40,604 nt of DNA from a virus (IMGVR_UViG_3300047289_000027:1-40604), one strand, 5' to 3'. Positions 1,383-40,109 are shown, counted from the first letter of the stretch. Notes: generated by a model not told the origin, from the sequence alone. A program made the numbers and translations.

Positions 1383-4300
1383 ATGTCTCTTGATGTATTA
1401 AAAGCAAATAGAATCGACGGACAGGTATCAATCGAACCTGTAGAAACCTTATACGATCCAGTATCGAAGATGCGTGTGTCAACACCATCTAACTTGATTG
1501 ATACTGACTTCGAATACGGTCTTCAGTCTTCCAAGTGGGAAACCTTGGAACTGATCAACAACATCCCGACATTCTTTTCACGTGATGGTTCTCTTAGCCT
1601 AAACCTTGTTTCGATGACTGGTATTGCCAATAGCAACACTATCACAGTCACTTGTTCAGAAGATCACGGTCTTGTTGTTGGTAACTCTATCCTTATTAAG
1701 GGTGCAGGGTTGCAATTTGCTGACGGTACATACGTTGTATTGACCACTCCAACCTCTAGCACATTCACCTACCGTGCAAGACGTGCTTCTCCAATCACAG
1801 GTTCTTTACTTGATGCTGCCACTGAAATTTACTTGGCTTCTCTGTATCAAGGTACAGAATTTAAGTTGGAATCTCTTGGTGCTATTGGAACCGATGGCGG
1901 TTCTCCTTCCACAATCTCAGTAACAACAAACTCTCCACACGGGTTTAAAGTTGGTACTACGTTCATTCTATTGAACAGCTTGACATCACAACAAGTTGCA
2001 TTCGACGCAACTCTTGTAACCTCCCTAATCTATACAGAATCTCAAGCCATCTTGCGCCTTGATGACGCAGTTGTTGTCAATGATGATGGTTACACAGATC
2101 AAGCATTCGTCACTTACGGCACTGCAGGTGTAACAGATCCAGGTGTTGCTGGTATGACTTTGGTTCTTGATGGTGATGCAACCACAGACAACGAAGGTGT
2201 TGACGATGCCGTCGTACGTGTTCTGTTCCCAGAAGCTATGGCGTTTAAGATATTTGATACAACATATGATCGCCTTTGGGTATCAACTAACGGCGTGGTA
2301 GTTTTCACCAACGATACTCAGTTGGATGGCACTGGTCCATATGTTCCTGTCGGCTACACCATAGCAGAAGTTGTAGCCCCAAGAATTGAGTTTCTGAAGA
2401 AAGACTATCAGTTGAAGAAGTTGTATTCTTCAGCTACAGGAACTTCTCTGCGTTTGCGTTTCGAAGGTCGTGAATATGACGATGGTGGTACAGCTACTAC
2501 TATTATCTGGGAGTTGACATTCGACTGCGAAAACGATACATTTACTGCACGTTTGATCAAAGCAGATCTAATCGTTTCTTCTCTTTCTGCATTAGAGTTT
2601 AAGGTAGTTGGTGAAAATAACGAAGCATACAACGCAACTCTAAATGGTGATGCGTTCTTCGATCCAGCACAGAACTGGAAACGTGAACTAACCATCAGAA
2701 CTACTTCTTCCAACGAAGAAGTTTCAAGTGTTAACGGATACTCTGTAAACTCTTTAGATCTAGACAACACATCTAAGTTCAACCCATACGTTTGGACTTC
2801 AGACAAGGTTAACTTTAACCCAACCTCTGGCACAAGTCGCCCTACTCTATTCTTCAGTCTAGGTAAAAATGCAAGCGACTGGTGGACTGAGCAAGGTATC
2901 AACGACACTAACTACATTAAGTCTACACGTTTCAACGTATTGACTTTCGATCAAGACCACTATCTACAAGACAACCGTCCATACCTATACAATCCAGGTG
3001 TGTTGAATGGTGGCTTGTCTATCGCTGGTTCACAAGTTACTGCACCTACAGTTTACTACGTAAGAACCAAGCCTGGATTCTACAACGGTACTACCACTGC
3101 AGGTAGTGCAGTAACACTAACAGCTGCAGCTTATGCAACTGCATGTTCTGTATCTGGCAACACCCTAACTATTGGTGGCACCATTACTAGCACATTTGAT
3201 GTTGGTACTTATATCGGTGATGGTGCATACGGTGACGTCCCAGACGGAACATACATTGTTGCAAGAGGTACTGGTACTGGTGGTGCTGGTACTTATATCA
3301 TTAACCGCCCATTGAACATTCCAACATTCCCTTGTACTGGTAGAAGAAGCGTGATGACAGTCACTTCTACTACTGGTATGTATCCAGGTGCTGCGATTCG
3401 TTTAACCTCAGTTAACAACGTAACACCTTATAGCACCGCACATATACAAGGTCCATCCGTAACAGCTGGTTCCTTCATAATTGGTTATCAATATACAATT
3501 TCTTCCGTTGGTACAACCAACTTCACATTGATTGGTTCACCTAATAACGTTATTGGTACCACATTTACAGCAACTGGTGCTGGAACTGGAACAGGTACTG
3601 CCAACGGTTCGCTAGGTGGATTGAATGGTCTGCAGACATACTACGTTAAGGATGTGTTATCTGCAACACAGATAACAATCTCTACATCAAAACCATCAGA
3701 CATTAACGACGATGAAGTTAATGTGGCTATGAACTTCACTCAGTCTGCTAACGGTGCGTTTACAGTTCAAGTTGGCACTATTATTGAAGACTCTGCCAAA
3801 CAAGCAGTTCTTGTGACTCAAGCTAACCGTCGTACTGCACTGACTGTAAACTTCGGTGTTCAAGCAGCTACTGCAAGATTCCCATTGGCAACTGATAGAT
3901 TCGGTCCACACTCGTTCATGGCAGCGTCTCGTATCCACAACTACCAGACTGCAGTTGGAACTATGTTCTTGCAATGCCCAGACTCTAAGGGCAACGCTAT
4001 TCTTGACAACCAACCGTTTGTAACTTGGACAACAGCACCTACTGGTTTAACTGCTTCCACAAACAACTGGAACGTTGCAAACAGCGTAATTTACTACGCA
4101 AGAAACGCAAACTCAGATACCCATACATCTAACGGTCTAAATAGCTCACCTGGAAATGCAGACTTCTCCACTTATGGTGCAGATATTGCTACTGTTGCTG
4201 CAGCTGCTCAAGACGCAACTACTGTTACTGTTACGTTCGATGAGGGTAACTATACCACATTGTTGAGCACTGCGGTAACTACAAACATCTTGACTGTACT

Positions 4301-7300
4301 TTCTACAACTGGTATGAAAGCTGGACAGTCTATTTCGTTTGAAGGTACTGTTGGTAACGTACAAGCATACACTGAATACTTTATCGCTGCTGTTGCATCA
4401 GGCACTACTCTAACCATCAGCACTACACGTGGTGGTGCTGTTATGGCGCAAGTTAACGCATCTGGTGTTAAAATCCCTACTGTTGCATATGGTCCATTTG
4501 CCTCTGACCCAACCAACACTAGACAAACCTACTTGGGTGCATTGCAAGTAACAACTTATGCTTCCAATACAACAGCGGGTAGCGACATTGTAACCTTGAC
4601 TAGATCATACGGTCTAGACGTTGGACAAGCTGTTTCGTTTAACGCAACCTTTGGTAGCATAGTTTCTGGCACAACATATTATGTTGCAGAAGTAGTTAGC
4701 GGAACTGAGATCAAAATTAGCGCTACGCAAGGTGGTGCAGTTAAAACACTAACAACTGCATCGTCAACCACAGCAGTGATGACTTCCACACCACTAAGAA
4801 ACAACCAAACTGGTCACTGGATCACATTCAAGACAAACAATGCTGCGTTGAATGCCGCATTCAGTACATCTCCGTTTGGAGAGTTCCCAAGCACATCTGA
4901 ACCAATGGTCGGTTTGGTCACCGCACATACTGGCACTACAACTCGTTCTCTAACCGTTAAGTTACTGAACCCATTGAACAACGCATTGCTATTGCAAACT
5001 AACAACGTTGGTTTCGACTTGCAAGGTTCTGTCTCTGCTCCAGTGTTGACGCTAAACGCTGCAACAACTTCTGGCGGTTCTAATATTGCATTGTCTGGTG
5101 TTGCAGTTGACGGTTACATTGTTCCAGTTAACTATACGCAACCATGGACTACAGGTAGAACATGGTACTCTAAGAATCACGGATTCCAAAACAACGACTT
5201 GGTCTTGTGGGAAGGTTCAGGTGGTACAGTAACTGTTCCTACTGGTCTAACCAACAGAGCATACTATATCGTCGACTCTGCAACAACAAACCGTTTCAAG
5301 CTACTAACTGACGCAGGTACTGCAGTTTCTGTAACTACTGCATTGGGTGCTCAGCTGAACGGTGCTCAACTAGATCGCAATGGTCAATACAGTGGTGTGA
5401 CTACTAAGAACACTGAGTCTTGGTTGTGGCGTTGGGCAGCTGTTGCTGCTGGCGGTACTGCTGCGTCACTAGTATACCCATCTCCATCATATTCTACTGC
5501 TGCCAACATCGTTGTACCTAACATCACAGCTGGTCAGAATACGTTCACATTCACTTCTGCAGCACGTATTGCTGGTGGCGGTGGCTTGTCTAACCAGACA
5601 CATCTTGGTGCAAGAATTAGATTCTACGATCAGTTCAACCAAGCTCTAAAGATGGGTACGCCATATGGTCGTAACGTCTCGGTGACACTAAACCAGAAAG
5701 TGTTCTGGAGAAATAACCTGTACAACGTAAGTGTTGCTGGCACAACAGCATCTGGTCCATACGCTGAACCTACCCACACTAGTGGTACAGAAGTCAGCGG
5801 CACTGCTGAACTAACATGGATCGGTGACGCTCGCTTCAATGAGTATGACATTCGCGTTAGCTCGGTATCAGGTACTGCTCCTGCGTTGTCCGTTGTTGTT
5901 TATGTATTGACTCCAGGCGGTCTACCAGCACCATTTACTACCACATCTACAAACAAAGTTGTTATCGACACTGGCTTGTCTGTGCGTGATGAAGATCACG
6001 TTATCGTAGGTACAAACTGGATGAAGTATCAGTCTGCGTTCGGCAACCTTGATGATAACGCATACTACCCATTCTTAGGTGCACAACTACAAGATAGATT
6101 CGAGGTGTCTCGCTTCCCTTCTACTACATTGAAGAACGGTTCTATCTCTGCGTTGTCTGTGGCTGAAAACATTACTGCAACTTACACCTTCCCTGTAAAC
6201 ACAGTAAACATTGTATCTGCAGTTAGAAGTAATAACGTTGCAACTATCACAACAGCAACTCCGCACGGCTTCAAAGAAGGTACTAACGTTGCTGTTGCCA
6301 GTGTTTCTAACACCACATTCAACAATGCTACTGCTTACATCCTAAGCACAACATACAACACCTTTACCTACGCTAACGCTGGAACAGACGCTACTTCTAC
6401 CAACGGTACAGCTGGTCAGTTGATTCCAAGCATTATCCCTAACGTGTTTGCTATCAGTGCAATGACAAGCAACTCCACTGCTGTAGTAACTACTGCTGCA
6501 CACAGTCAGGTTGTTGGTACTATTGTTCCGTTCCACTTCCAAGGATTTGTTGGTGGATCGCCATGGGCAGACTTGTGGGATCAGAAAGTGTACTACGCTA
6601 AGATCACAGCTGCAACAACTTTCGAAGTATACAAAGACTCCGCAGGTACAGAGCCTCTAAACACAGCAGCGTTTGCAGCATACAATGCTGGTACAAACGT
6701 TGGTCGTATTTGGTTCTTGGGTGTTAAGTTAGATCCAGTTGGACACTCTCATAACTTCACAAAGAGAGCTGCAAACGTAAACGGCGACTCGATCTATAAA
6801 GCATCACATGGTATCAACGAAGGTACTGCGGTAACTTATGCTACAGGTGGTGGTTTAGAAGTTGGTGGTTACACTGGCGGTATGACCAAGTATGTATTCC
6901 AACCAACAAACGATCGTTTCCGTCTAGCGGACACAGCAACTGGTTGGAGCACCGCAGCAATTTCATTCACTCAAAACGTTGGTAACATGGTTGTGTCAAC
7001 TGGTGTGTTTACTACACCAACACATGGCTTTACTACTGGTCGTCAAGTTCAATACTTGTCAAGCACCCCAACAGCAGGATTGACCAACGGTGCATTCTAT
7101 TACGTTCGTGCAGACAGCGCAACAACATGTACACTATACTGGACTCAAGCTGGTGCGATTAACAACGTTGCAACTGATCGTGTTAAATTCGTTGGAACTC
7201 CAGTTGGTACTGGCTCACTAAGAGAAGCGTTGATTGTTGATGTGACTTCCGAGGGTACAGGCGCTAACCAGACAATGACAACTGGTGTTGTGACTGGTGC

Positions 7301-10300
7301 GATTGATGGCTTGTATACTCTTGCTGACGCTGCACCTTCTGGCGATACAAGAAAGTTCTTGTTGAACAACCCAACTGGTGCCGTTATCCCTAAACGTGTG
7401 TTGGGTATTAACCCAGCTGCCAACGTAGACTTTTACTGGAATGCCATCTATAGTCTTGGACACAAACTTGTAACAGGTACTCCTGTAGTTTACACAACAA
7501 GCGGAACAGCGATGGGTCCACTGGTTAGTGGCAACACTTACTACATCATTAAAGTTACTGAAGACTGGTTCAGACTAGCAGACAGCGTTGCAAACGCAGT
7601 TAACCCTGTAGTTGTGCCTGTTATCCTAAACAGCGGAAATTATCTTGGAAGTGGTACACACCAGTTCGAAGCAGCTTCTGTTGTTGGTTCTATCCAAGGT
7701 TCAGGTAACATCCAACTAGCTGCTGGTACAAGAAAGGTTATTGGTAACAACACTAACTTCTCTACAGCGTTTAAGGCTGGTGATAACTTCTACTGGAACT
7801 ATCCAGCAGTGTACACTAACAAGGTAGTAACTCTATCTGGCGGTCCAACATTGTTCGCTTCAGCAGCCCACGGTATGTTGACAGGTATGTCTGTTCGTTG
7901 GAACTCAACAGTTACAGCACCTACAGGTCTGGTCAACGGTAACATCTACTACGTTCGTTGGAACTTGGTTGGTGACTTCTACCTATGCCCAACTTACAAC
8001 GATGCAGTTGCAGGCACTAACTTGATCAACGCAACAGGTGGTTCTGGAACTCACTCTGTGCAATTGATCGAGCCTGGAAATACTGGAGTTAGCTTGATTT
8101 CTTCATTGAACTCACGTACAGTGCTGAACTTGGTTGATACTATCCCTATCAACGAACAGTACAAACTACCAGTGACCTCAGTTGTTACAGCTGCAAGCAC
8201 TACTGCGACTATCAACTTCCCAATGCCTTGCCCATTCCCAGCTGGATCGGTTATTGTATTGACTGGAACTGGTAACGCTACTCTATTGGATAACATTCCA
8301 TTGACAGTGTTGGCAAACACTGGTAGCAACTCTACTTCTATCACAGTAACCTTACAGACTACTGCAACAGTTGCTACTTACCCAGCAACTACAACAGCAG
8401 CTACTCTAGGTACTATCTTCTGCCACGGATTCCCTCTAACCAACACTTATGACGTAACGTCTAGTTTGTTGTTGCGTGCAGACTCTTCTGCGCTACACAG
8501 ACCATATGATGGTGGTGTGGAATTGATTGCAACTGATGCGCCAGATGCACGTGTTATCCGTCAAACTCGTAAATACTTCCGTTACCAATCTGGTAAAGGT
8601 ATTCAAGTATCGTTTGCGGTTAACTTCTCACCTAGCGTTATTATCAACTCGATAACTGGTAACAGTAACTTCTTTGCAACTGTAACTACTCGTGTTGCGC
8701 ACAGAGCAACTGCTGGTTTGGGTATTACAATCAATGGCGATACTACTGGAGTCTACGGCGGTTCATACACTATCGCCAGCGTTATTGACGACTACACATT
8801 TACAATCCCTCTAGGTTCAGCGATTAGCGCTGTGTCAGGTGGACGTCCACAGTTCTATGTGAACAATTGGACTGATGCTGCAGTTCGTTGCGGTTTGTTT
8901 GATGGACAGAACGGTATGTTCTTCGAGTATGACGGTAGCGTGTTGTCTGTGGCTAGAAGAAACTCTACTACTCAACTTGGCGGTACTGCTACCGTGGTGT
9001 TCAACAGCAACACTGTCACTGGTATCAATACTCTGTACTTGTCCGAGTTGGAGCCTGGAGACGATGTTGTTATCAAGGGTATGACCTATAAGGTTATCGA
9101 AATTGCAAGCAACACAACCTTCTACGTCCAACCAGCGTATCGTGGCACTAACGCAGCGAACTGCGTAGTTAGCTTGACTCAAGAAACACGTGTACCACAA
9201 AGCCAGTGGAACCTTGACCCATGTGATGGAACTGGTCCAACAGGATACAACCTTGACATCCACAAGATCCAAATGGCTTACATGGATTACTCATGGTATG
9301 GTGCTGGTAAGGTTCGTTTTGGTTTCAAGGACACAGACGGTGTTGTTCGTTACGTACACCAACTTATCCACAACAACCAAGAAACCGAAGCGTATCTACG
9401 TTCTGGTAACCTACCAGCTCGTTATGAAGTAGACACAGGTGCCGCACCTTCGTTTATTCCTAAGCTAGCTCACTGGGGTACTTCGGTTATTATGGACGGT
9501 GGATTCGATGACGACAAGGCATACTTGTTCTCTGCTACCTCTAACCAGATTCGAACTGCTTCTGCTACCACAACATCAAGTACAATTAACGTAACTGGTG
9601 GTACTACAATTTCTGTATCGCAGACTAAAGCTGCTGGCACGTTTATTGTTGGTAGAACTTACCAGATCGTATTCCCAGGAACTACGAACTTTACGTTGAT
9701 TGGTGCTGCTAACAACAACATCGGAACAAACTTCGTTGCCACAGGTGCTGGTACAGGTACTGGTACTGCTTACGCTCTTGACAAATGGTATGCGTACAAC
9801 ACTGGTGGTAAGTTGATTGGTGAAATCGGTTACGCAATCGAAGTGCCAACCCACTCTGACGCTTACTACAGTATTAACGCTAACTCTCAAGTTACTGGTA
9901 CTGGTGTGACCCCAGGTACTTTGACAGCTAACCCAACAAACGCTGGTGTTGGTTCTCAACCTTATCTGCGTCAAGTTAGAGTTTCGCCTACAACTAACAC
10001 CCTAAAGAACTTGTTGGTTATCAATGCGATTCCAAGTTCTCTACAAGGTACTGGTATTACATACTCTGTGGTGCAGCCAGTCGACTTGTCAAAGACAATC
10101 CCGTTGCTATCGCTACGCTTGTCTCCAACAGTTGATAACGGCATCCCAGGTGCTATGGGTCAACGTGAAATTATCAACCGCATGCAGTTGAACTTGAAAG
10201 CATTGGACGTATTGTCAACCCACGAAATTGAGTTGTCTCTAGTTCTTAACGCTGACTTGGATAACTTGGATTGGAAGCGTGTTACAACACCATCTTTGAG

Positions 10301-10607
10301 TCAGGTTGTTTACCATAACATGTCTGATACAATCGACCAAGGTTCTGTTATCTTCTCGTTCCGTGTGGCACCTGGACCATCACTAGCAGCTACTCCAGTT
10401 GCTGGACGTGCTCAGTCGCTAACCTCTATTGACTTGCGTGAAATTGCAACTCTGGGTAATTCGATTATGGGCGGTGACGGCGTGTTCCCAGACGGTCCAG
10501 ACGTTTTGACCTTGCGTATGAAATACATCGGTTTGACAACTGACGTTGGTGCGAGTGGTCAGTTCGTAACATCTTGCCGTTTGTCTTGGACAGAATCACA
10601 GGCTTAA
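1383..10607 (+). CDS. giant modular tail/structural protein (3074 aa)
   Basis: This is by far the largest gene in the window. It follows TTGGAGAAAA Shine-Dalgarno sequence at good spacing. The N-terminus ('STPSNLIDTDFEYGLQSSKW', near residue 34) resembles the start of large virion proteins of aquatic T4-like phages, some annotated VrlC or generic structural protein. The body is Thr/Gly/Asn/Ala-rich and built from recurring beta modules: an 'HGF/HGL..G..V' turn, then 'YYV' and a 'T.F.L' strand. Copies are encoded near 1658, 1936, 5175, 6262, 6808, 7025 and 7868. Two copies of a 'GTTNFTLIG...ATGAGTGTGTA' module are also present. The C-terminal 500 residues are less repetitive. It sits where T4 has gp10-gp12 and just before the neck genes, so an adsorption or baseplate-periphery role is inferred. 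Confidence 0.75.
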   Translation: MSLDVLKANRIDGQVSIEPVETLYDPVSKMRVSTPSNLIDTDFEYGLQSSKWETLELINNIPTFFSRDGSLSLNLVSMTGIANSNTITVTCSEDHGLVVGNSILIKGAGLQFADGTYVVLTTPTSSTFTYRARRASPITGSLLDAATEIYLASLYQGTEFKLESLGAIGTDGGSPSTISVTTNSPHGFKVGTTFILLNSLTSQQVAFDATLVTSLIYTESQAILRLDDAVVVNDDGYTDQAFVTYGTAGVTDPGVAGMTLVLDGDATTDNEGVDDAVVRVLFPEAMAFKIFDTTYDRLWVSTNGVVVFTNDTQLDGTGPYVPVGYTIAEVVAPRIEFLKKDYQLKKLYSSATGTSLRLRFEGREYDDGGTATTIIWELTFDCENDTFTARLIKADLIVSSLSALEFKVVGENNEAYNATLNGDAFFDPAQNWKRELTIRTTSSNEEVSSVNGYSVNSLDLDNTSKFNPYVWTSDKVNFNPTSGTSRPTLFFSLGKNASDWWTEQGINDTNYIKSTRFNVLTFDQDHYLQDNRPYLYNPGVLNGGLSIAGSQVTAPTVYYVRTKPGFYNGTTTAGSAVTLTAAAYATACSVSGNTLTIGGTITSTFDVGTYIGDGAYGDVPDGTYIVARGTGTGGAGTYIINRPLNIPTFPCTGRRSVMTVTSTTGMYPGAAIRLTSVNNVTPYSTAHIQGPSVTAGSFIIGYQYTISSVGTTNFTLIGSPNNVIGTTFTATGAGTGTGTANGSLGGLNGLQTYYVKDVLSATQITISTSKPSDINDDEVNVAMNFTQSANGAFTVQVGTIIEDSAKQAVLVTQANRRTALTVNFGVQAATARFPLATDRFGPHSFMAASRIHNYQTAVGTMFLQCPDSKGNAILDNQPFVTWTTAPTGLTASTNNWNVANSVIYYARNANSDTHTSNGLNSSPGNADFSTYGADIATVAAAAQDATTVTVTFDEGNYTTLLSTAVTTNILTVLSTTGMKAGQSISFEGTVGNVQAYTEYFIAAVASGTTLTISTTRGGAVMAQVNASGVKIPTVAYGPFASDPTNTRQTYLGALQVTTYASNTTAGSDIVTLTRSYGLDVGQAVSFNATFGSIVSGTTYYVAEVVSGTEIKISATQGGAVKTLTTASSTTAVMTSTPLRNNQTGHWITFKTNNAALNAAFSTSPFGEFPSTSEPMVGLVTAHTGTTTRSLTVKLLNPLNNALLLQTNNVGFDLQGSVSAPVLTLNAATTSGGSNIALSGVAVDGYIVPVNYTQPWTTGRTWYSKNHGFQNNDLVLWEGSGGTVTVPTGLTNRAYYIVDSATTNRFKLLTDAGTAVSVTTALGAQLNGAQLDRNGQYSGVTTKNTESWLWRWAAVAAGGTAASLVYPSPSYSTAANIVVPNITAGQNTFTFTSAARIAGGGGLSNQTHLGARIRFYDQFNQALKMGTPYGRNVSVTLNQKVFWRNNLYNVSVAGTTASGPYAEPTHTSGTEVSGTAELTWIGDARFNEYDIRVSSVSGTAPALSVVVYVLTPGGLPAPFTTTSTNKVVIDTGLSVRDEDHVIVGTNWMKYQSAFGNLDDNAYYPFLGAQLQDRFEVSRFPSTTLKNGSISALSVAENITATYTFPVNTVNIVSAVRSNNVATITTATPHGFKEGTNVAVASVSNTTFNNATAYILSTTYNTFTYANAGTDATSTNGTAGQLIPSIIPNVFAISAMTSNSTAVVTTAAHSQVVGTIVPFHFQGFVGGSPWADLWDQKVYYAKITAATTFEVYKDSAGTEPLNTAAFAAYNAGTNVGRIWFLGVKLDPVGHSHNFTKRAANVNGDSIYKASHGINEGTAVTYATGGGLEVGGYTGGMTKYVFQPTNDRFRLADTATGWSTAAISFTQNVGNMVVSTGVFTTPTHGFTTGRQVQYLSSTPTAGLTNGAFYYVRADSATTCTLYWTQAGAINNVATDRVKFVGTPVGTGSLREALIVDVTSEGTGANQTMTTGVVTGAIDGLYTLADAAPSGDTRKFLLNNPTGAVIPKRVLGINPAANVDFYWNAIYSLGHKLVTGTPVVYTTSGTAMGPLVSGNTYYIIKVTEDWFRLADSVANAVNPVVVPVILNSGNYLGSGTHQFEAASVVGSIQGSGNIQLAAGTRKVIGNNTNFSTAFKAGDNFYWNYPAVYTNKVVTLSGGPTLFASAAHGMLTGMSVRWNSTVTAPTGLVNGNIYYVRWNLVGDFYLCPTYNDAVAGTNLINATGGSGTHSVQLIEPGNTGVSLISSLNSRTVLNLVDTIPINEQYKLPVTSVVTAASTTATINFPMPCPFPAGSVIVLTGTGNATLLDNIPLTVLANTGSNSTSITVTLQTTATVATYPATTTAATLGTIFCHGFPLTNTYDVTSSLLLRADSSALHRPYDGGVELIATDAPDARVIRQTRKYFRYQSGKGIQVSFAVNFSPSVIINSITGNSNFFATVTTRVAHRATAGLGITINGDTTGVYGGSYTIASVIDDYTFTIPLGSAISAVSGGRPQFYVNNWTDAAVRCGLFDGQNGMFFEYDGSVLSVARRNSTTQLGGTATVVFNSNTVTGINTLYLSELEPGDDVVIKGMTYKVIEIASNTTFYVQPAYRGTNAANCVVSLTQETRVPQSQWNLDPCDGTGPTGYNLDIHKIQMAYMDYSWYGAGKVRFGFKDTDGVVRYVHQLIHNNQETEAYLRSGNLPARYEVDTGAAPSFIPKLAHWGTSVIMDGGFDDDKAYLFSATSNQIRTASATTTSSTINVTGGTTISVSQTKAAGTFIVGRTYQIVFPGTTNFTLIGAANNNIGTNFVATGAGTGTGTAYALDKWYAYNTGGKLIGEIGYAIEVPTHSDAYYSINANSQVTGTGVTPGTLTANPTNAGVGSQPYLRQVRVSPTTNTLKNLLVINAIPSSLQGTGITYSVVQPVDLSKTIPLLSLRLSPTVDNGIPGAMGQREIINRMQLNLKALDVLSTHEIELSLVLNADLDNLDWKRVTTPSLSQVVYHNMSDTIDQGSVIFSFRVAPGPSLAATPVAGRAQSLTSIDLREIATLGNSIMGGDGVFPDGPDVLTLRMKYIGLTTDVGASGQFVTSCRLSWTESQA
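3463..3609 (+). repeat. GTTNFTLIG/GTGTGTA module, copy 1
   Basis: The encoded segment runs AGSFIIGYQYTISSVGTTNF, then TLIG, a short Asn-rich loop, and ends ATGAGTGTGTA. It matches the segment encoded at 9631-9773 across about 47 residues, with identical GTTNFTLIG and ATGAGTGTGTA blocks. This looks like a small beta module used as an interchangeable unit in phage tail proteins. Confidence 0.7.
9631..9773 (+). repeat. GTTNFTLIG/GTGTGTA module, copy 2
   Basis: This is the second copy, 6.2 kb downstream in the same gene: AAGTFIVGRTYQIVFPGTTN, then FTLIG, an Asn-rich loop and ATGAGTGTGTA. Protein similarity to copy 1 is clear, while codons differ at many positions, so this is an old duplication or separate acquisition rather than a recent tandem copy. 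Confidence 0.7.
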
Positions 10608-19828: not shown

Positions 19829-20482
19829 ATGAAACTGATTAGAGAAGAAGTTGCAGAAACCAAACTGATCGTTGAAGAAAAGTTAGGTAAAGGTAAGCAA
19901 TACTTTATCGAAGGCGTGTTCCTTCAATCCGAGATCGTTAACCGTAACGGTCGTATGTACATGGAAAAGGTAATGGACAACGAGTGTGACCGTTACATCA
20001 AAGAGTACGTAGAAAAGAACAAAGCATATGGTGAACTGGGTCATCCAGAAAATCCATCTATCAATCTAGAGCGTGTGTCTCACCTTATCGTTGGTCTTCG
20101 TAAAGAAGGCACTAACTGGATTGGTAAAGCAAAGATTTTAGAAACCCCAATGGGTATGATTGCACGTGGTCTATTAGACGGTGGCGCAAACCTTGGTGTT
20201 TCAAGCAGAGCAATGGGATCCCTTAAAACAAACAATGAAGGTATCCAAGTTGTCCAAGACGATTTCATGCTAGCTACCGCAGCTGATATTGTCGCAGACC
20301 CATCTGCTCCTGATGCATTCGTAAGAGGCATCATGGAAGGTAAAGAGTGGGCATTCGTTGATGGAAGATTTGTGGAGAAGAACATTGATGAAGTTAAGCG
20401 TCATGTACGTGGTGCTTCATCTAAAAACCTAGAGGAAGCGAAGATTCGTGCTTTCCAATATTTCCTGAGTAAAATCAGCTAA
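19829..20482 (+). CDS. 21: prohead maturation protease gp21
   Basis: At 217 residues (T4 gp21 is 212), this is the serine protease that matures the prohead by cleaving core and capsid proteins. Family motifs are clear: 'NRNGRMY' (residues 38-44), 'AYGELGHP' with the presumed catalytic H72, and 'GVSSRAMGS' (123-131) with the nucleophile among S125/S126. The segment 'AADIVADPSAPDAFVRGIME' near residue 151 is also typical. It is flanked by core genes upstream and the scaffold and major capsid downstream, the full T4 maturation set. Confidence 0.94.
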   Translation: MKLIREEVAETKLIVEEKLGKGKQYFIEGVFLQSEIVNRNGRMYMEKVMDNECDRYIKEYVEKNKAYGELGHPENPSINLERVSHLIVGLRKEGTNWIGKAKILETPMGMIARGLLDGGANLGVSSRAMGSLKTNNEGIQVVQDDFMLATAADIVADPSAPDAFVRGIMEGKEWAFVDGRFVEKNIDEVKRHVRGASSKNLEEAKIRAFQYFLSKIS

Positions 20483-26744: not shown

Positions 26745-27789
26745 CCAGCATTTTGGCTGTCGTAATGACAGTATTGCGTTCTTAGATTTTTTTGAGAAAT
26801 TTTATGACAATACTTTCTTTCCTGCATTGGTTGCCAATGATATCCGTGTCGTTCTTGTTTTGGGTGACACCTTTGATCGTCGCAAATACGTTAATTTCTA
26901 TGCGCTCCAGCGAACCAAACAAATGTTTTTTGATCGTCTTGCTGACGCAGGCATCACTGTGCATATGCTTGCTGGTAACCACGATACTTACTTTAAGAAT
27001 ACCAATGATGTAAACTCTCCAGACTTGCTGTTGCGTGAGTATGATAACATCAACGTCATCGACACACCACAAACGATCCACCTGAAGTACGAAGACACTT
27101 CATACGATGTTTGCATGATGCCGTGGATCTGCCCTGAGAACTATGCCAACTCAATGGCTGAACTCAAGAATACCTCTGCTGAAATCTGTATGGGTCACTT
27201 CGAGATCTCTGGCTTCGCTATGTATCGTGGTATGGAATCCCATGAAGGTTTAGATCCTGCCGTGTTCCAGAAGTTTGACCAAGTATTCTCTGGTCACTAT
27301 CACCATCGTAGCAGCAAAGGTAACATCACTTATCTTGGCAACCCATATGAGATGACATGGCAAGACTACAACGATCCTCGTGGCTTCCATATCTTTGACT
27401 TGAGTAATCGTTCACTTGAGTTTATTCAGAATCCTTACACGATGTTCGAACGGTTCGAGTATGATGATGCAGCGTTTGATCCAGATGGCATCGACACCTC
27501 TAGCTTCGAAGGTAAGTATGTGAAGATCGTTGTTGTAAACAAGACTGACCTTTACAAGTTTGACAAGTTCATGGCAAGAGTGTATACTAAGAATCCGTAT
27601 GAAGTAAAAATCATTGAGGACTTCTCTGAGTTCAGCGAAGGTGTTGTATCTTCTGAGATTGATCTTGAAGACACCATGGACGTTCTCAATAATTACATCG
27701 ACTCAATTCAGACAGACTCAGACAAAGAGAAAATCAAGACTTACTTGAAGTCTCTGTATACTGAAGCAGTCAACATGGAGGTAGTATAA
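26722..27789 (+). CDS. 47: recombination endonuclease subunit gp47 (Mre11-like)
   Basis: I chose the ATG at 26722, giving 355 residues (T4: 339), because 'MKVAVITDQHFG' is the family's N-terminal strand and GGAG lies 6 bases before it; a TTG at 26686 in the same frame would add 12 unlikely residues. Metallophosphoesterase motifs are complete: D8-x-H10, 'GDTFD' (G48-D52), 'GNHD' (85-88), 'MGHFE' (157-161) and 'GHYHH' (191-195), which bind two metals. With gp46 it forms the SbcD/SbcC-like nuclease that processes DNA ends for recombination-dependent replication and degrades host DNA. Its stop overlaps the next start. Confidence 0.94.
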   Translation: MKVAVITDQHFGCRNDSIAFLDFFEKFYDNTFFPALVANDIRVVLVLGDTFDRRKYVNFYALQRTKQMFFDRLADAGITVHMLAGNHDTYFKNTNDVNSPDLLLREYDNINVIDTPQTIHLKYEDTSYDVCMMPWICPENYANSMAELKNTSAEICMGHFEISGFAMYRGMESHEGLDPAVFQKFDQVFSGHYHHRSSKGNITYLGNPYEMTWQDYNDPRGFHIFDLSNRSLEFIQNPYTMFERFEYDDAAFDPDGIDTSSFEGKYVKIVVVNKTDLYKFDKFMARVYTKNPYEVKIIEDFSEFSEGVVSSEIDLEDTMDVLNNYIDSIQTDSDKEKIKTYLKSLYTEAVNMEVV

Positions 27790-29693: not shown

Positions 29694-29722
29694 TTGACAT
29701 TTATTCGTAATTAGGGTATAAT
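29694..29722 (+). promoter_or_regulatory. perfect-consensus sigma70 promoter
   Basis: TTGACA (29694-29699), 17 bases, and TATAAT (29717-29722) match the consensus exactly at the optimal spacing. The spacer TTTATTCGTAATTAGGG is very similar to the spacer of the promoter at 31957. It drives the peptidase/VWA gene 24 bases downstream and should be strong with unmodified host polymerase, that is, early. Confidence 0.93.
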
Positions 29723-29745
29723 TCTGTTATTGACAGGAGAACTAC

Positions 29746-31938
29746 ATGATTACGAATAAAGACATTCTTGCAAAATTGCTTGCGTCTGAGAACATTCACG
29801 TTGTGCGTGCACCAATGCGCACAGCGTCTTTTGACATCGTTTCCCGAACACTCAATCTTCCGCAATGGAAAGATATGACCGAAAACATTGAAGACATGTT
29901 AGTCGGTCACGAAGTCGGTCATGCCCTATTCACGGACATGACATATCTCCAAACAGAAAACTACGGCACACTGCACGGCTACTTGAACATCATCGAGGAC
30001 GTTCGTATCGAGAAGTTCATGAAGAACAAGTATCCAGGTCTGCGTAAGTCTTTCCTGCTTGGCTACAAAGAATTGAACGATCGTGACTTCTTTGAGATCA
30101 AAGACAAAGACGTCAACAAGATGTTGTTGATCGATCGTATCAACATCTACTACAAGTGCGGCATCAACAGTGGTGTCAAGTTCACTCCAGAAGAAATGGA
30201 TTTTGTACGCAAGGTTGATCGTTGCGATACCTTGAAACACGTGCAAGACCTTGCCAAACAAATTTACGAATACACCAAGACTGAGGTATCACTCAAGAAG
30301 AAGCAAGCTGCTGAGCGTGGCGAGATGACTGCTGAAGACTTGGAAGACATGCTTGAAGAAGCACTTGACGATCTGGATCCAGATATGGTTGCGTCCATGA
30401 ATATGGACAATCTCGACTTTGAGTATGATCCATATGCTGAAGAAGACGAAAAGCCAGTCAAAGAGTTGACTGCTGAACAGAAAGAAAATGCCAAAGAATT
30501 TGCTGCTGGTACTAACAAGTACACTGAACCAGACTTTGAAGTCAAAGAAGAAGAACTGGAATCGCAAACTGAGCGTGCACTGAAGCGTCGACTTGAAGAA
30601 GTCGCAGACGAATCTACACGTGTAGAGACTTGGGTTCCTGAGATGGCACTTCCAACTAACGATGAGGTTGTTATCTCTTACAAAGAGTTGTTCTCTTTGA
30701 TGGGTGCTTCATATAATGAAGAACGTGGTGAAGAATTTCGCAAAAGCAACCTAAAGCGTTTGGATGACTTCAAGACTGAAACTGGTCGTGTGGTCAACTA
30801 CTTGGTTAAAGAGTTTGAGATGCGTAAGTCTGCCGATGCGTACAAGCGTAACACCATCTCCAAGACAGGTAACTTGAACATCAACAAGCTGGCTGTATAT
30901 CAGTTGACTGACGATGTATTCAAACGAATCACTATTACCAAAGATTCTAAGAATCACGGCATGATGTTTTTGCTCGACTGGTCAGGTTCAATGATTGACA
31001 ATATTGCTGACACAATCAAGCAGTTGATCACTTTGTGTATGTTCTGCCAGCGTACTCAGATTCCGTACCAAGTGTTTGCGTTCACTAATGGTTTCCCATT
31101 CCGTGGCAACCTTGACTACGATGGAGTCTATAACAACTTGCATAAGAATAATTATGACGAAAAAACTTACAAAGGTTTCGGCTATAATAAGTTCAATCTG
31201 TTGGAGTTGTACTCTTCCAAGATGACTACTAGCGAGTTCAATCGTATGTCTGAGTTTATGTTTGCTTCTCCATGGATCTGGTGTAAAGCGATGAACATGA
31301 ACAGTACTCCGCTGAACGAAGCACTGTTGTATATGGCTAACTACTTGGGTGAGTTCAAGCGAGCTAACTCTGTTGAGAAACTCACATTCATCACATTGAC
31401 TGATGGTGAAGGTGGCGGCATGAGTGGTTACGCACGTACTCTTTCTCATCGTCAGTCTGGCTACGATGCGCAGGGTAACTGGAAGTCTTACACGGTGATC
31501 AACTATCTTCACGATCCAGTCACTAAGAAAGACTACAAGATTACACAAGACTCCAGCGTACAGACTCGTGTGCTTTTGAAGTTGATCAAGGATCGTTACG
31601 ATGCTAAGACAATCGGTTTCTATATCGGTCGCAACTCTCGTCGTGACTTGGCTTGGTTCGTTCGTAACAACGCTATGACTTCCAACGCCACTGAAGAATC
31701 CAACCTTGTGGGAATCTTGCAAACTGCTCTTCGTAAAGAAGACTTTGCCTATCTTACAAACTGTGGTCGAGACGAAATGTATTTGCTCCAATCTTCCAAG
31801 ATGGCTATCCAAGAAGGCGACTTGAAGGTGGGTGGAGACATGAGTTCTCGAGAAATTGCAAAGGCATTCAACAAGTACTTGGATGTTAAGAAGACAAACC
31901 GTGTGCTACTCAACAGATTCGTGGCTCAAATCGCCTAA
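29746..31938 (+). CDS. predicted zinc-peptidase/VWA-domain protein (CobT/NorD-like)
   Basis: This 730-residue protein has two recognisable ends. Near the N-terminus, 'VGHEVGHALF' gives an HExxH-type zinc site (H55-E56-x-x-H59), followed by 'NIIEDVRIEK' (81-90), where E84 could be the third ligand. Residues about 180-290 are acidic and low-complexity. The C-terminal half is a von Willebrand A domain with a MIDAS: 'LLDWSGSM' (D411, S413, S415), 'TPLNEAL' near 520 and 'TLTDGEG' near 550. This layout resembles CobT, NorD and related VWA partners of MoxR-family AAA+ ATPases, and such an ATPase is the next gene. Each gene has its own promoter. The substrate is unknown; I infer a metal-dependent AAA+/VWA remodelling machine. 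Confidence 0.8.
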   Translation: MITNKDILAKLLASENIHVVRAPMRTASFDIVSRTLNLPQWKDMTENIEDMLVGHEVGHALFTDMTYLQTENYGTLHGYLNIIEDVRIEKFMKNKYPGLRKSFLLGYKELNDRDFFEIKDKDVNKMLLIDRINIYYKCGINSGVKFTPEEMDFVRKVDRCDTLKHVQDLAKQIYEYTKTEVSLKKKQAAERGEMTAEDLEDMLEEALDDLDPDMVASMNMDNLDFEYDPYAEEDEKPVKELTAEQKENAKEFAAGTNKYTEPDFEVKEEELESQTERALKRRLEEVADESTRVETWVPEMALPTNDEVVISYKELFSLMGASYNEERGEEFRKSNLKRLDDFKTETGRVVNYLVKEFEMRKSADAYKRNTISKTGNLNINKLAVYQLTDDVFKRITITKDSKNHGMMFLLDWSGSMIDNIADTIKQLITLCMFCQRTQIPYQVFAFTNGFPFRGNLDYDGVYNNLHKNNYDEKTYKGFGYNKFNLLELYSSKMTTSEFNRMSEFMFASPWIWCKAMNMNSTPLNEALLYMANYLGEFKRANSVEKLTFITLTDGEGGGMSGYARTLSHRQSGYDAQGNWKSYTVINYLHDPVTKKDYKITQDSSVQTRVLLKLIKDRYDAKTIGFYIGRNSRRDLAWFVRNNAMTSNATEESNLVGILQTALRKEDFAYLTNCGRDEMYLLQSSKMAIQEGDLKVGGDMSSREIAKAFNKYLDVKKTNRVLLNRFVAQIA

Positions 31939-31956
31939 AAATTTGTTGGAAAGTGC

Positions 31957-31985
31957 TTGTCTTTTATTACGATTTAGGGTATAAT
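31957..31985 (+). promoter_or_regulatory. sigma70 promoter of CobS-like gene
   Basis: TTGTCT (31957-31962), 17 bases (TTTATTACGATTTAGGG) and TATAAT (31980-31985). The spacer shares TTTATT, CG and TTAGGG with the promoter at 29694, so the two genes of this pair have matching promoters. I see no terminator between the two genes. Confidence 0.88.
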
Positions 31986-32024
31986 AACTCTATTGATGAT
32001 GTTCATTTTTGAAAGGTATATATT

Positions 32025-33170
32025 ATGAGTAAGATTGACGCCAGCCTGAAAGCTAACTTTGAGGCTAAACTTTTCGAGATGTTCCCTGACGTGAAAGAGT
32101 CAGGTAATGTTACACGTAAACAATTGCTTGCTGTTCGTGACGCACAGGGTGTAGACTTCTATCCAGTTTGGTTGATGACACAACCAATCAGTCGTGGTCT
32201 GTATGCCATCAATGGTACGACACCATCGACTGTTGCACCTAAAGCAAAAACGAAACCTGAATCTGTTATGGTAGACTACACTAACTCATCGTCACTTGTT
32301 CCAAGCGTAGACAAGAACTACGTACCCTTTGGTAACTATCGTGACGTTGAGTCCATTATCAAGTCCAAAATCTTTTACCCTGCATACATCAGTGGTCCAA
32401 CTGGTAACGGTAAGTCAACTATGGTTGAACAAACTTGTGCCAAGCAGAAGCGTCCACTTATCCGTATCAACTTCAACAGCATGACTGACGAAGACCAACT
32501 GATCGGCACTAAAACCCTTATCGATGGCAACGTGGAGATCGTCGAAGGTCCAGTCGTTATCGCCATGCGTATGGGTATGCCAATTCTCTTTGACGAGATT
32601 GACGCAGGTAACTCCAACACTCTGATGTGCTTGCAGCCCATCCTCGAAGGTAAGCCATTCTATTTCAAATTGAAGAATGAGTTGATCTATCCAGCAGAAG
32701 GTTTCAACATCTTTGCTACTGCAAACACCAAAGGTAAAGGTTCAGACGATGGTCGTTACATCGGCACGAACGTTCTGAACGAAGCATTCCTTGAGCGTTT
32801 CGCTGTTACCTTTAACCAAGACTACCCAGCACCTTCAGTCGAATTGAAGATCGTTACTAAACTCATGGAGCAATATGAGTGTGTTGATGCTAAGTTCGCT
32901 GACACATTGATCAAGTGGGCAGACGCTATCCGTCGCACTTTCGATGCAGGTGGTGTTGACGAAACAATTACTACTCGCCGATTGACTCACATCATTCGTG
33001 CGTTTGCTATTTTCAAGAACCAGAAGAAGTCGGTTGAGTTGTGTACTAACCGATTCGATGATGCTACTCGTTTGGCATTCGTCGACTTGTTCGATAAAGT
33101 TTCATCAGAGGATGATGTCACTCCTGTTGCACCTACGGTTGCTGCAGAGACAGACCACATCCCTTTCTGA
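32025..33170 (+). CDS. CobS/MoxR-like AAA+ ATPase
   Basis: This 381-residue AAA+ protein has Walker A 'GPTGNGKST' (124-132), Walker B 'ILFDEID' with D190-E191, a sensor-1 segment 'FNIFATANT' near 229, and the arginine-finger region 'NEAFLERFAVTF' (about 251-262). The inserted 'LKNELIYPAEGF' loop before sensor 1 is typical of the CobS/MoxR clade. CobS is annotated in many aquatic T4-like phages as a cobaltochelatase subunit, but a phage lacking CobN cannot make a chelatase alone. The partner VWA protein just upstream fits the general MoxR-VWA pairing (RavA-ViaA, NorQ-NorD). The N-terminal 80 residues include a charged helical stretch. An unusually clean terminator follows. Confidence 0.88.
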   Translation: MSKIDASLKANFEAKLFEMFPDVKESGNVTRKQLLAVRDAQGVDFYPVWLMTQPISRGLYAINGTTPSTVAPKAKTKPESVMVDYTNSSSLVPSVDKNYVPFGNYRDVESIIKSKIFYPAYISGPTGNGKSTMVEQTCAKQKRPLIRINFNSMTDEDQLIGTKTLIDGNVEIVEGPVVIAMRMGMPILFDEIDAGNSNTLMCLQPILEGKPFYFKLKNELIYPAEGFNIFATANTKGKGSDDGRYIGTNVLNEAFLERFAVTFNQDYPAPSVELKIVTKLMEQYECVDAKFADTLIKWADAIRRTFDAGGVDETITTRRLTHIIRAFAIFKNQKKSVELCTNRFDDATRLAFVDLFDKVSSEDDVTPVAPTVAAETDHIPF

Positions 33171-33177
33171 TGCTTCG

Positions 33178-33216
33178 GTCGGGGTAGTAACTGCCATCGC
33201 TACCCCGACTCTTTTT
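33178..33216 (+). terminator. strong Rho-independent terminator after CobS-like gene
   Basis: GTCGGGGTAG and CTACCCCGAC form a perfect 10-bp stem around a 12-base loop, followed by TCTTTTT. It closes the peptidase/VWA - AAA+ unit, so this pair (29694-33216) has its own promoters and its own terminator. Confidence 0.93.
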
Positions 33217-33560: not shown

Positions 33561-33887
33561 ATGACAGACGTAGTTAAAGACTCGCAAACAGCCACTGTTG
33601 GTGGTAGAAAATTTGATGGTGGTAAACTGGAATACGGTTTGCTCCCACCGCTGGCTCTTCAAGAGACAGTAAAGGTTCTGACTTTCGGTGCACAGAAATA
33701 TGAACGAGACAACTGGCAGAAAGTTCCAGACTCGAAACGTAGATACTTCGATGCACTACAGAGACATCTCTGGCAGTGGAAGATGGGTGAAGAACTAGAC
33801 GCAGAATCTGGTATACATCACTTGGCTCATGCGATGTGTTGCTTGATGTTTTTGTATGAGCATGATGTGAAATACTCTAAGGAATAA
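33561..33887 (+). CDS. DUF5664-type dATP/dGTP diphosphohydrolase-like protein
   Basis: This 108-residue protein matches the pattern of the phage family called DUF5664 or 'dATP/dGTP diphosphohydrolase N-terminal': 'GGRKFDGGKLEYGLLPPLAL' (residues 14-33), 'LTFGAQKYERDNW' (40-52), 'RYFDALQRHLWQWKMGEELD' (61-80) and 'ESGIHHLAHAMCCLMFLYE' (82-100). Conserved His, Asp and Glu residues suggest a metal-dependent helical nucleotide hydrolase related to MazG/HD-like folds. A role in nucleotide-pool control is inferred from the family name, and activity is unproven here. TTGGAGGTGAC precedes the ATG; the next gene starts 3 bases after the stop. Confidence 0.75.
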   Translation: MTDVVKDSQTATVGGRKFDGGKLEYGLLPPLALQETVKVLTFGAQKYERDNWQKVPDSKRRYFDALQRHLWQWKMGEELDAESGIHHLAHAMCCLMFLYEHDVKYSKE

Positions 33888-34452: not shown

Positions 34453-35268
34453 ATGAAATCGTTTATGAAAATTGGTTTGATCGTTGGTCTGTTGGCTCTT
34501 GCTACTGGCTGCACTCGGATCGAGACAGGTGAAGTTGGTCTACGTGTTGGCTTCGACAAGCAGGTGAAGAATGAGGAATTGCTTCCAGGTTCTTTCAACC
34601 AAACCTTTGTTGGTGATGTGTTGACATTCCCAGTCAAAGAAGTTGCAGTGAAGGTTGACGACCTGAACCCACAGGCTGCTGATAACTCCACCATGAAAGA
34701 CTTTGACTTGACTGTTATCTACAACATCAATCCAAGTCAGATCGCTGAGATCTACAACACAAAGAACAAGTCGTTCCATGCTGTTCATAATGGCGACACC
34801 TACCTGATGTACAACTACATCTTCAACGCAACTCGTAACGCTGTTTACAAAGCTGCTCGAAAGCATGAAGCATTGAACATGGGTGATAACCGAACACTTA
34901 TGGAAAATGAAATCCGTGAGACTGTGACTGGTACATTGGCTTCTGAAAATCTTGGTGGTGTGATTAACATTACTCAGGTTCTGATTCGTAACGTGATCCC
35001 AGCTGACACTGTTGTTGAATCAGCAAACGCTTTGGTTCGTGCTAAGAATGAAACCAAGCAGAAAGAAGCTGAAGTTCGTACTGCTAAGTTGGAAGCTGAA
35101 CGTATCCAAGCCCTTGCTCAAAACACTGGCGCTATCCAGTATATGGATGCTCAGACTCGTATGATGAATGCTGAAGCAAATAAGATCCAAGCCCAAGCTA
35201 TCGCCCAGTTCAAAGGTGGTACTCTGGTGTTGGGTGGTCAGTCTCCAGTGTTGAACGTAGGTAAGTAA
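34453..35268 (+). CDS. SPFH/Band-7 domain lipoprotein
   Basis: This 271-residue protein begins with a lipoprotein-type signal (MKSFMKIGLIVGLLALATGC; Cys20 is the likely lipidated residue; the box LATGC is slightly non-standard). Next comes 'TGEVGLRVGFDKQ' and 'LLPGSFNQTFVGDVLTFPVK', the stomatin/prohibitin (SPFH) N-terminal strands, then 'DFDLTVIYNINPSQI' and the helical 'ANALVRAKNETKQKEAEVRT' then 'AKLEAERIQALAQ' coiled-coil that drives oligomerisation. SPFH proteins form ring-shaped membrane scaffolds. Lipidation would place this one outside the inner membrane, in the periplasm. A host-envelope or superinfection role is possible but unproven. A TAAGGAATCGAA site precedes the ATG. Confidence 0.85.
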   Translation: MKSFMKIGLIVGLLALATGCTRIETGEVGLRVGFDKQVKNEELLPGSFNQTFVGDVLTFPVKEVAVKVDDLNPQAADNSTMKDFDLTVIYNINPSQIAEIYNTKNKSFHAVHNGDTYLMYNYIFNATRNAVYKAARKHEALNMGDNRTLMENEIRETVTGTLASENLGGVINITQVLIRNVIPADTVVESANALVRAKNETKQKEAEVRTAKLEAERIQALAQNTGAIQYMDAQTRMMNAEANKIQAQAIAQFKGGTLVLGGQSPVLNVGK

Positions 35269-36275: not shown

Positions 36276-36304
36276 TTGACATACCCCTGTTTTAGGGGTA
36301 TACT
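36276..36304 (+). promoter_or_regulatory. sigma70 promoter with embedded palindrome, before sliding clamp
   Basis: TTGACA (36276-36281), 17 bases, TATACT (36299-36304). The spacer and first bases of the -10 form a perfect inverted repeat TACCCCT (36282-36288) / AGGGGTA (36294-36300), with a GTTTT centre. This could be an operator for a repressor, or a small hairpin from read-through RNA. The TTAGGG before the -10 is shared with the promoters at 29694 and 31957. Confidence 0.85.
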
Positions 36305-39590: not shown

Positions 39591-40109
39591 ATGACTAAGT
39601 TCATTCCAGATGCAATGCTGCACCCACAGTTCAAAGACTTCGACAAATTCTTTGTCGGGTTTGACGAACAATTCAATCGCATGGCTAAGTTCCATGACGA
39701 CTTCGCAAAAAACATTCCCAACTATCCACCATACAACATCAAGAAGACTGACGAGAATAAGTACGTCATCGAGATGGCTGTAGCTGGCTTCGCCAAGCAT
39801 CAAATTGAGATTGAGTTCGAACAAGACAAACTCATTGTCAAGGGTAATGCATCCGAAGACAAGGAAGCAAAGGAATGGTTGTATCAAGGTATTGCTGCTC
39901 GCAACTTCACCCGCACCTTCGCATTGAACGACCAAGTCGAAATCAATGGCGCTGAGTTGATCAACGGTATGTTGAAGATTGCACTTGAGCGCATTATCCC
40001 AGAAACCAAGAAGACAAAGAAAATTGATATTACTGAGAATGGTTCTACGACTTCTAAAAAGCAAATGCTAACAGAGGATCAGTATGACGAACTTCTTAAC
40101 AAACATTAA
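39591..40109 (+). CDS. Hsp20 / alpha-crystallin small heat shock protein
   Basis: This 172-residue protein has an alpha-crystallin domain at about residues 47-137: 'YNIKKTDENKYVIEMAVAGF', 'IEIEFEQDKLIVKGN', the characteristic 'GIAARNFTRTFALND' (100-114) and the closing 'NGMLKIALERIIPE', with a G-x-L-x-I/V-like strand. The N-terminal arm is Phe/Asp-rich, as in IbpA-type proteins. Small heat shock proteins hold unfolding proteins for refolding by DnaK/ClpB. Phage Hsp20 genes are common in aquatic T4-like phages and may aid capsid or host protein stability. AATAGGAGAAATAAA precedes the ATG. Confidence 0.92.
   Translation: MTKFIPDAMLHPQFKDFDKFFVGFDEQFNRMAKFHDDFAKNIPNYPPYNIKKTDENKYVIEMAVAGFAKHQIEIEFEQDKLIVKGNASEDKEAKEWLYQGIAARNFTRTFALNDQVEINGAELINGMLKIALERIIPETKKTKKIDITENGSTTSKKQMLTEDQYDELLNKH

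Follow-up and report, generated by a model that had tools for sequence, protein, structure and literature searches.

We propose, with roughly even confidence, that two adjacent genes in the IMG/VR virus sequence IMGVR_UViG_3300047289_000027:1-40604 (40,604 nt, a 40.6-kb fragment of a genome; the whole stretch is called the window below) encode a NorQ/NorD-type remodelling machine with an apparently intact gluzincin-type N-terminal domain (N-domain), which would be expressed early or in the middle phase and act on replication/recombination or host targets. The first gene encodes a VWA-metallopeptidase (CobT/NorD-like) protein of 730 amino acids (29746..31938), an open reading frame matching phrog_459 over its full length (E=1e-182). 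The second encodes a MoxR/CobS-like AAA+ ATPase of 381 amino acids (32025..33170), an open reading frame matching phrog_249 (E=2e-100). Both genes, and the promoters, terminator and protein segments described below, lie on the plus strand. All the reading frames and motifs listed in an initial annotation of this DNA (H55, E56, H59, E84, D411, S413, S415 and the AAA+ set) were found in place.

The N-domain of the VWA protein (approximately residues 1-195; 29746..30330) carries the HEVGH motif (residues 55-59; 29908..29922) and the NIIED motif (residues 81-85; 29986..30000), the latter with the third-ligand candidate E84. H55, E56, H59 and E84, as well as D411, S413 and S415 of the VWA domain, are invariant in a 12-member alignment of the family (A1), and the complete H-E-H...N-x-x-E-D metal-site set is invariant in the T4-like family. 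Most of the divergent CobT-like proteins of phages likewise retain HEVGH, and chelatase CobT also has E84. The protein possesses the HExxH and conserved downstream Glu that define gluzincins (clan MA). In hhalign comparisons, the N-domain matched the N-domain of cellular CobT-like proteins with a probability of 99.2 and M48 zincins with a probability of 42; the latter match is weak but in register at HExxH, and unrelated controls gave 0.3-1.8. Another putative metallopeptidase-VWA family, DUF2201_N, offered too few usable sequences for a profile comparison. The AlphaFold2 model places strands 18-22, 28-30 and 35-39 ahead of two successive helices, 46-62 with HExxH and 73-95 with E84, a succession that a minimal zincin would be expected to show. 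Judged by its sequence, the N-domain is probably a functional metallopeptidase domain.

The C-terminal half resembles NorD. An acidic linker (approximately residues 196-265; 30331..30540), modelled with low confidence (predicted local distance difference test score, pLDDT, <50 for residues 198-262), is followed by a segment conserved in alignments A1 and A3 (approximately residues 350-400; 30793..30945), which by its position ahead of the metal-ion-dependent adhesion site (MIDAS) may be the counterpart of the NorD pore 'finger'. The VWA domain proper (residues 400-730; 30943..31935) has the NorD VWA and the MDN1 MIDAS as its best PDB matches. It contains the MIDAS motif DWSGS (residues 411-415; 30976..30990) with T521 and D553, so that a conserved DxSxS-T-D motif is present, in a NorD-like VWA fold, in a protein whose gene adjoins an AAA+ gene. 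The AlphaFold2 models of the two proteins were built from 51 and 32 sequences and reached mean pLDDT values of 76 and 85. In the fold search with residues 294-730, the NorD VWA domain scored Z 15.9 (9qh6_G, 262 residues) and the MDN1/Rea1 MIDAS domain Z 15.1, whereas generic VWA domains remained at about 11. The C-terminus is Ile/Val-Ala in most T4-like members. Since the 730-residue protein matched neither a peptidase nor a VWA family in Pfam or NCBIfam, and a family profile search found no sequence relative in the PDB, homology was bridged via the SSU5 CobT, cellular relatives and structure prediction.

The ATPase matches AAA_5 (E=9e-17), and its motif set (G124/G127/G129/K130, D190/E191, N234, R258 and R318) is invariant in the family alignment. 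Walker A (GPTGNGKS, residues 124-131; 32394..32417), the Walker B region with D190 and E191 (32580..32597), sensor 1, Arg finger and sensor 2 are all present, as in CbbQ/NorQ/CobS-type AAA+ proteins, and CbbQ and NorQ are the closest folds of the model (template modelling score 0.84-0.88 on target length).

The two genes also travel together. Among 50,697 phage records searched with tblastn, the VWA protein was found in 463 and CobS in 526, with identical counts in the Synechococcus (365), 'Cyanophage' (61) and Prochlorococcus (24) records. These counts and the weak M48 alignment sustain the earlier description of a MoxR/VWA pair with a zinc-peptidase-like N-terminus. Both genes occur in all 38 IMG/VR contigs that have gp46 and at least 1.5 kb downstream; the frequent occurrence of one gene without the other was therefore not seen among gp46-bearing relatives. 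Evolutionary distances in one protein track those in the other (correlation 0.89; partial correlation 0.74 once gp46 and gp45 are removed); the proteins co-evolve beyond the level of neighbouring genes. Outside the T4-like set, a divergent CobT-like gene stands beside an AAA+ gene in SSU5, ICP2 and phages of Rhizobium, Gordonia, Pseudomonas, Roseobacter and Stenotrophomonas. A genome scan also revealed that Trichlorobacter, Methylomicrobium and Vibrio hepatarius encode cellular CobT-like proteins of the HExxH-VWA kind, accompanied by a CobS-like ATPase. Long phage-like matches in metagenome-assembled genomes (L098-L120) probably stem from phage contigs that were binned together with bacterial sequences.

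Some details of this distribution should be recorded separately. Nine IMG/VR contigs have the VWA gene and at least 1.5 kb downstream but neither gp46 nor an adjacent cobS (L029, L036, L043, L045, L050, L052, L053, L074 and L083); among them, the 87-kb contig L045 has cobS about 18 kb away, a 46-kb contig has none detected and a 52-kb contig only a weak match. In the three chromosomal loci examined, a DUF3150 gene separates the CobS-like and HExxH-VWA genes (L121:3667-7623, Trichlorobacter; L128:1764-7698, Methylomicrobium; L133:2628-7977, Vibrio hepatarius), and Toprim-domain and exonuclease genes are also found at the V. hepatarius locus.

The window has a T4-like gene order: terminase, tail sheath, portal, gp21 head protease, scaffold, major head protein, tail tube, uvsW, gp55, gp47, gp46, the VWA and cobS-like genes, gp45, gp44, gp62 and Hsp20. 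It thus reproduces the gp47-gp46-pair-gp45-gp44 synteny of T4-like phages with phrog_459/phrog_249. The signals around the pair suggest that it may form its own transcription unit. Ahead of the VWA gene lies a sigma70-type promoter, TTGACA-17-TATAAT (29694..29722), which is the sole 12/12 match in the window (Markov expectation 0). Sites matching at least 11/12 number three, against 0.48 expected; two of them are intergenic, before the VWA gene and before gp45 (36276-36304), and the other lies inside gp47 (27560-27588), 358 bases before gp46. The cobS-like gene is preceded by TTGTCT-17-TATAAT (31957..31985), a 10/12 match that taken alone is no better than chance (nine sites of at least 10/12 against 9.5 expected). 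An intrinsic terminator, GTCGGGGTAG-12 nt-CTACCCCGAC-TCTTTTT, with a 10-bp stem and a 12-nt loop (33178..33209), was overlooked by the automated scan because loops were limited to 3-8, but it is present, as are both promoters of the initial annotation. Among relatives, sigma70 sites of at least 11/12 occur upstream of the VWA gene in 9/77 and of cobS in 9/45 cases, against 0/82 coding controls. The T4-type late motif TATAAATA, which in the window is intergenic only before the tail-tube gene, occurs upstream of the VWA gene in 2/77 and of cobS in 0/45, near chance. As the promoters are early-type and the late motif is rare, early or middle expression of the pair is favoured.

Based on these observations, the pair might work as follows. 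The CobS-like ATPase, as its fold suggests, would form an AAA+ ring, and the VWA protein would serve as its co-chaperone. By analogy with NorQD, the conserved pre-MIDAS segment would plug the pore of the ring and the MIDAS would grip an acidic residue of the target. The N-terminal arm would be an apparently intact gluzincin-type metallopeptidase (HExxH and downstream Glu), unlike NorD or chelatase CobT, hence the target would be presented or remodelled by the motor and then cut by the N-domain. Transcription would proceed early or in the middle phase from host sigma70 promoters. Given this timing, and since the pair is flanked by the genes of the gp46/47 recombination nuclease on one side and the gp45/44 clamp genes on the other, replication/recombination or host complexes would be the likeliest targets, rather than corrin rings or late virion parts.

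Several points weigh against this proposal. NorD remodels without any reported peptidase activity, no Pfam peptidase family was found on the N-domain, and the similarity to M48 is weak. The fold search listed no zincin, yet it covered residues 294-730 only and says nothing on the N-domain. Two phage relatives, hairong and ANB28, lack HExxH and retain the MIDAS, so their pair works, or decays, without the site. Moreover, the patterns used to scan IMG/VR and the genome collections were themselves derived from HEVGHAL and NxxEDxRI; conservation counts from A3, the 38-contig IMG/VR set and the cellular relatives are biased, since these patterns picked them, and the unbiased sets for motif conservation are A1 (minus L001) and the divergent phage matches. 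Finally, neither the transcription timing of cyanophage cobS nor expression or proteomic data were found in the literature. With regard to the two exceptional phages, HExxH is replaced by SEIAK in the CobT-like protein of Pseudomonas phage hairong (L148:4989-7067) and by REVST in that of Stenotrophomonas phage ANB28 (L150:5007-6992), and both proteins resemble the chelatase CobT state.

An alternative, which we consider unlikely, is that the pair is a chaperone-protease of virion assembly that folds or processes structural proteins of the particle (Iyer et al. 2021). Such a role has been suggested for group 2.2 jumbo phages, whose pair shares this architecture (PMC7824862), and the window also encodes Hsp20, a possible assembly chaperone (39591-40109). 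However, the promoters are early-type and the late motif is near chance in relatives (see above), the genes lie within the replication block rather than the structural block, and the phage already has a gp21-type head protease (19829-20482).

The prospects seem poorer for a metal-insertion chaperone, in which HExxH and Glu would deliver metal to a phage metalloenzyme without any cutting, as NorQD does for cNOR. The iron inserters NorQ and NorD are indeed the closest structural relatives (PMC13036017), and Fe(II)/2-oxoglutarate oxygenase genes are found nearby in some relatives. On the other hand, E56 corresponds to the general base of peptidases and does not vary, though a pure metal carrier could do without it, and across the phages examined there is no metalloenzyme gene that consistently adjoins the pair.

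The names of the two genes point to a cobaltochelatase, and homology is real though distant: to CobS directly (E=9e-26) and to CobT via SSU5 and the cellular relatives (PF06213, E=2e-37; PF11775, E=3e-112). The ATPase, however, reaches only 90.8 bits against the CobS equivalog cut-off of 558.55 (TIGR01650), and the 730-residue protein gives no match at E<=1 to the CobT equivalog (TIGR01651, cut-off 759 bits). The N-terminal alignment shows the full H55, E56 and H59 set in 10/12 sampled phage and 5/5 cellular relatives, whereas none of the 19 CobT sequences taken from genomes with chelatase-level scores has HExxH (19 of 25 loci, the rest being on the minus strand or failing the motif filter); these carry other residues at the three positions. 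E84 and R87 are common to both groups. The N-domain is thus homologous to that of CobT, but chelatase CobT has no such metal site. The initial annotation had doubted cobalt insertion because the window has no CobN; since the window is a fragment, that absence is uninformative alone, but CobN was likewise not found in 13 complete related phages or in eight viral contigs, and the doubt stands. The CobN family was also not found in the E. coli control genome and is absent from 56/61 Vibrio genomes (present in 5/61), yet the pair is present in phages with E. coli or Vibrio as recorded host. The earlier proposal that the phage proteins CobS and CobT boost cobalamin supply by recruiting the CobN of the host (Liu et al. 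2021, PMC8651126) is therefore very unlikely to hold.

Should the two genes encode an early remodelling protease, the B12 reading of a core gene in abundant marine phages would be wrong. cobS is a cyanophage core gene (PMC3037559), and ocean surveys use it as a cyanomyovirus marker and class it among the auxiliary metabolic genes for vitamin B12; 'cobalamin genes' would then be a misleading name for the pair. The peptidase annotation of phage cobT has been called a mistake (PMC8651126), a view that deserves revisiting because the catalytic residues are conserved. The presence of H-E-H in phage-type proteins versus its absence in chelatase CobT provides a sequence rule for annotation, and the site lends itself to a simple mutation test. 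More tentatively, and with somewhat less than even confidence, we suggest that HExxH-keeping CobS/CobT-like pairs of phages, phage-plasmids and chromosomes might constitute an unrecognised class of AAA+-driven proteases with replication, recombination or host targets, in which the peptidase resides on the VWA co-chaperone and not on the ring, and that chelatase CobT might be a descendant that lost the site.

Other genes of the window include an unusually long open reading frame of 3074 amino acids (1383-10607) matching the virion structural families phrog_5838 and phrog_1645. Downstream of the pair are a gene with a dATP/dGTP diphosphohydrolase N-terminal domain (33561-33887; PF18909, E=1e-35) and a Band-7/SPFH lipoprotein gene (phrog_200; 34453-35268), the latter a short way past the pair. 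A match to the defence system Aga2 (E=0.006) was rejected as too weak.

The pair itself is already known. In T4-like cyanophages it belongs to the core genes and is named cobST (Sullivan 2010; Liu 2021, PMC8651126), pelagimyophages also carry cobS and cobT (PMC7029224), and a MoxR and vWA pair with an N-terminal metallopeptidase was described in group 2.2 jumbo phages, where the assembly proposal rests on analogy with the MoxR-vWA pair of Acidianus two-tailed virus (Iyer et al. 2021, PMC7824862). Hence the pair cannot count as new, as the papers of Liu and Iyer came earlier. The remark that descriptions of phage CobS usually leave out a partner no longer holds. For the suggested counter-defence role we found no evidence.

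Compared with these systems, cyanophage cobST is made of the same two families in the same order between gp46 and gp45, but the pair of the window is a divergent branch (30-35% identity to typical members for the VWA protein, 43-48% for CobS). The jumbo-phage pair, likened here by its published description, also places a MoxR AAA+ gene beside a vWA gene with an N-terminal metallopeptidase; it belongs to other phages and was assigned to virion assembly, whereas the promoters in the window are early-type. The aerobic cobaltochelatase CobS-CobT is distantly homologous in both partners and has the pre-MIDAS segment and E84 in common, but the phage proteins score far below its equivalog cut-offs, it lacks H55, E56 and H59, and it works with the CobN partner that the phage pair does not have. 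Cellular CobS-like/DUF3150/HExxH-CobT-like loci share the AAA+ and zincin-VWA pair and the identical H-E-H-N-E-D set, and differ in the intervening DUF3150 gene and, in most, a shorter protein. The closest structural matches to both partners are found in NorQ-NorD and CbbQ-CbbO. In NorQD, which inserts iron into cNOR, the NorD finger (residues 403-448, directly before the MIDAS) enters the NorQ pore and the last residues latch (PMC13036017); the linker, the pre-MIDAS segment where the finger would be and the hydrophobic C-terminus of most T4-like members may be parallels to this arrangement. The gene context, however, is different, and NorD, according to its literature description, is set apart by having no described HExxH.

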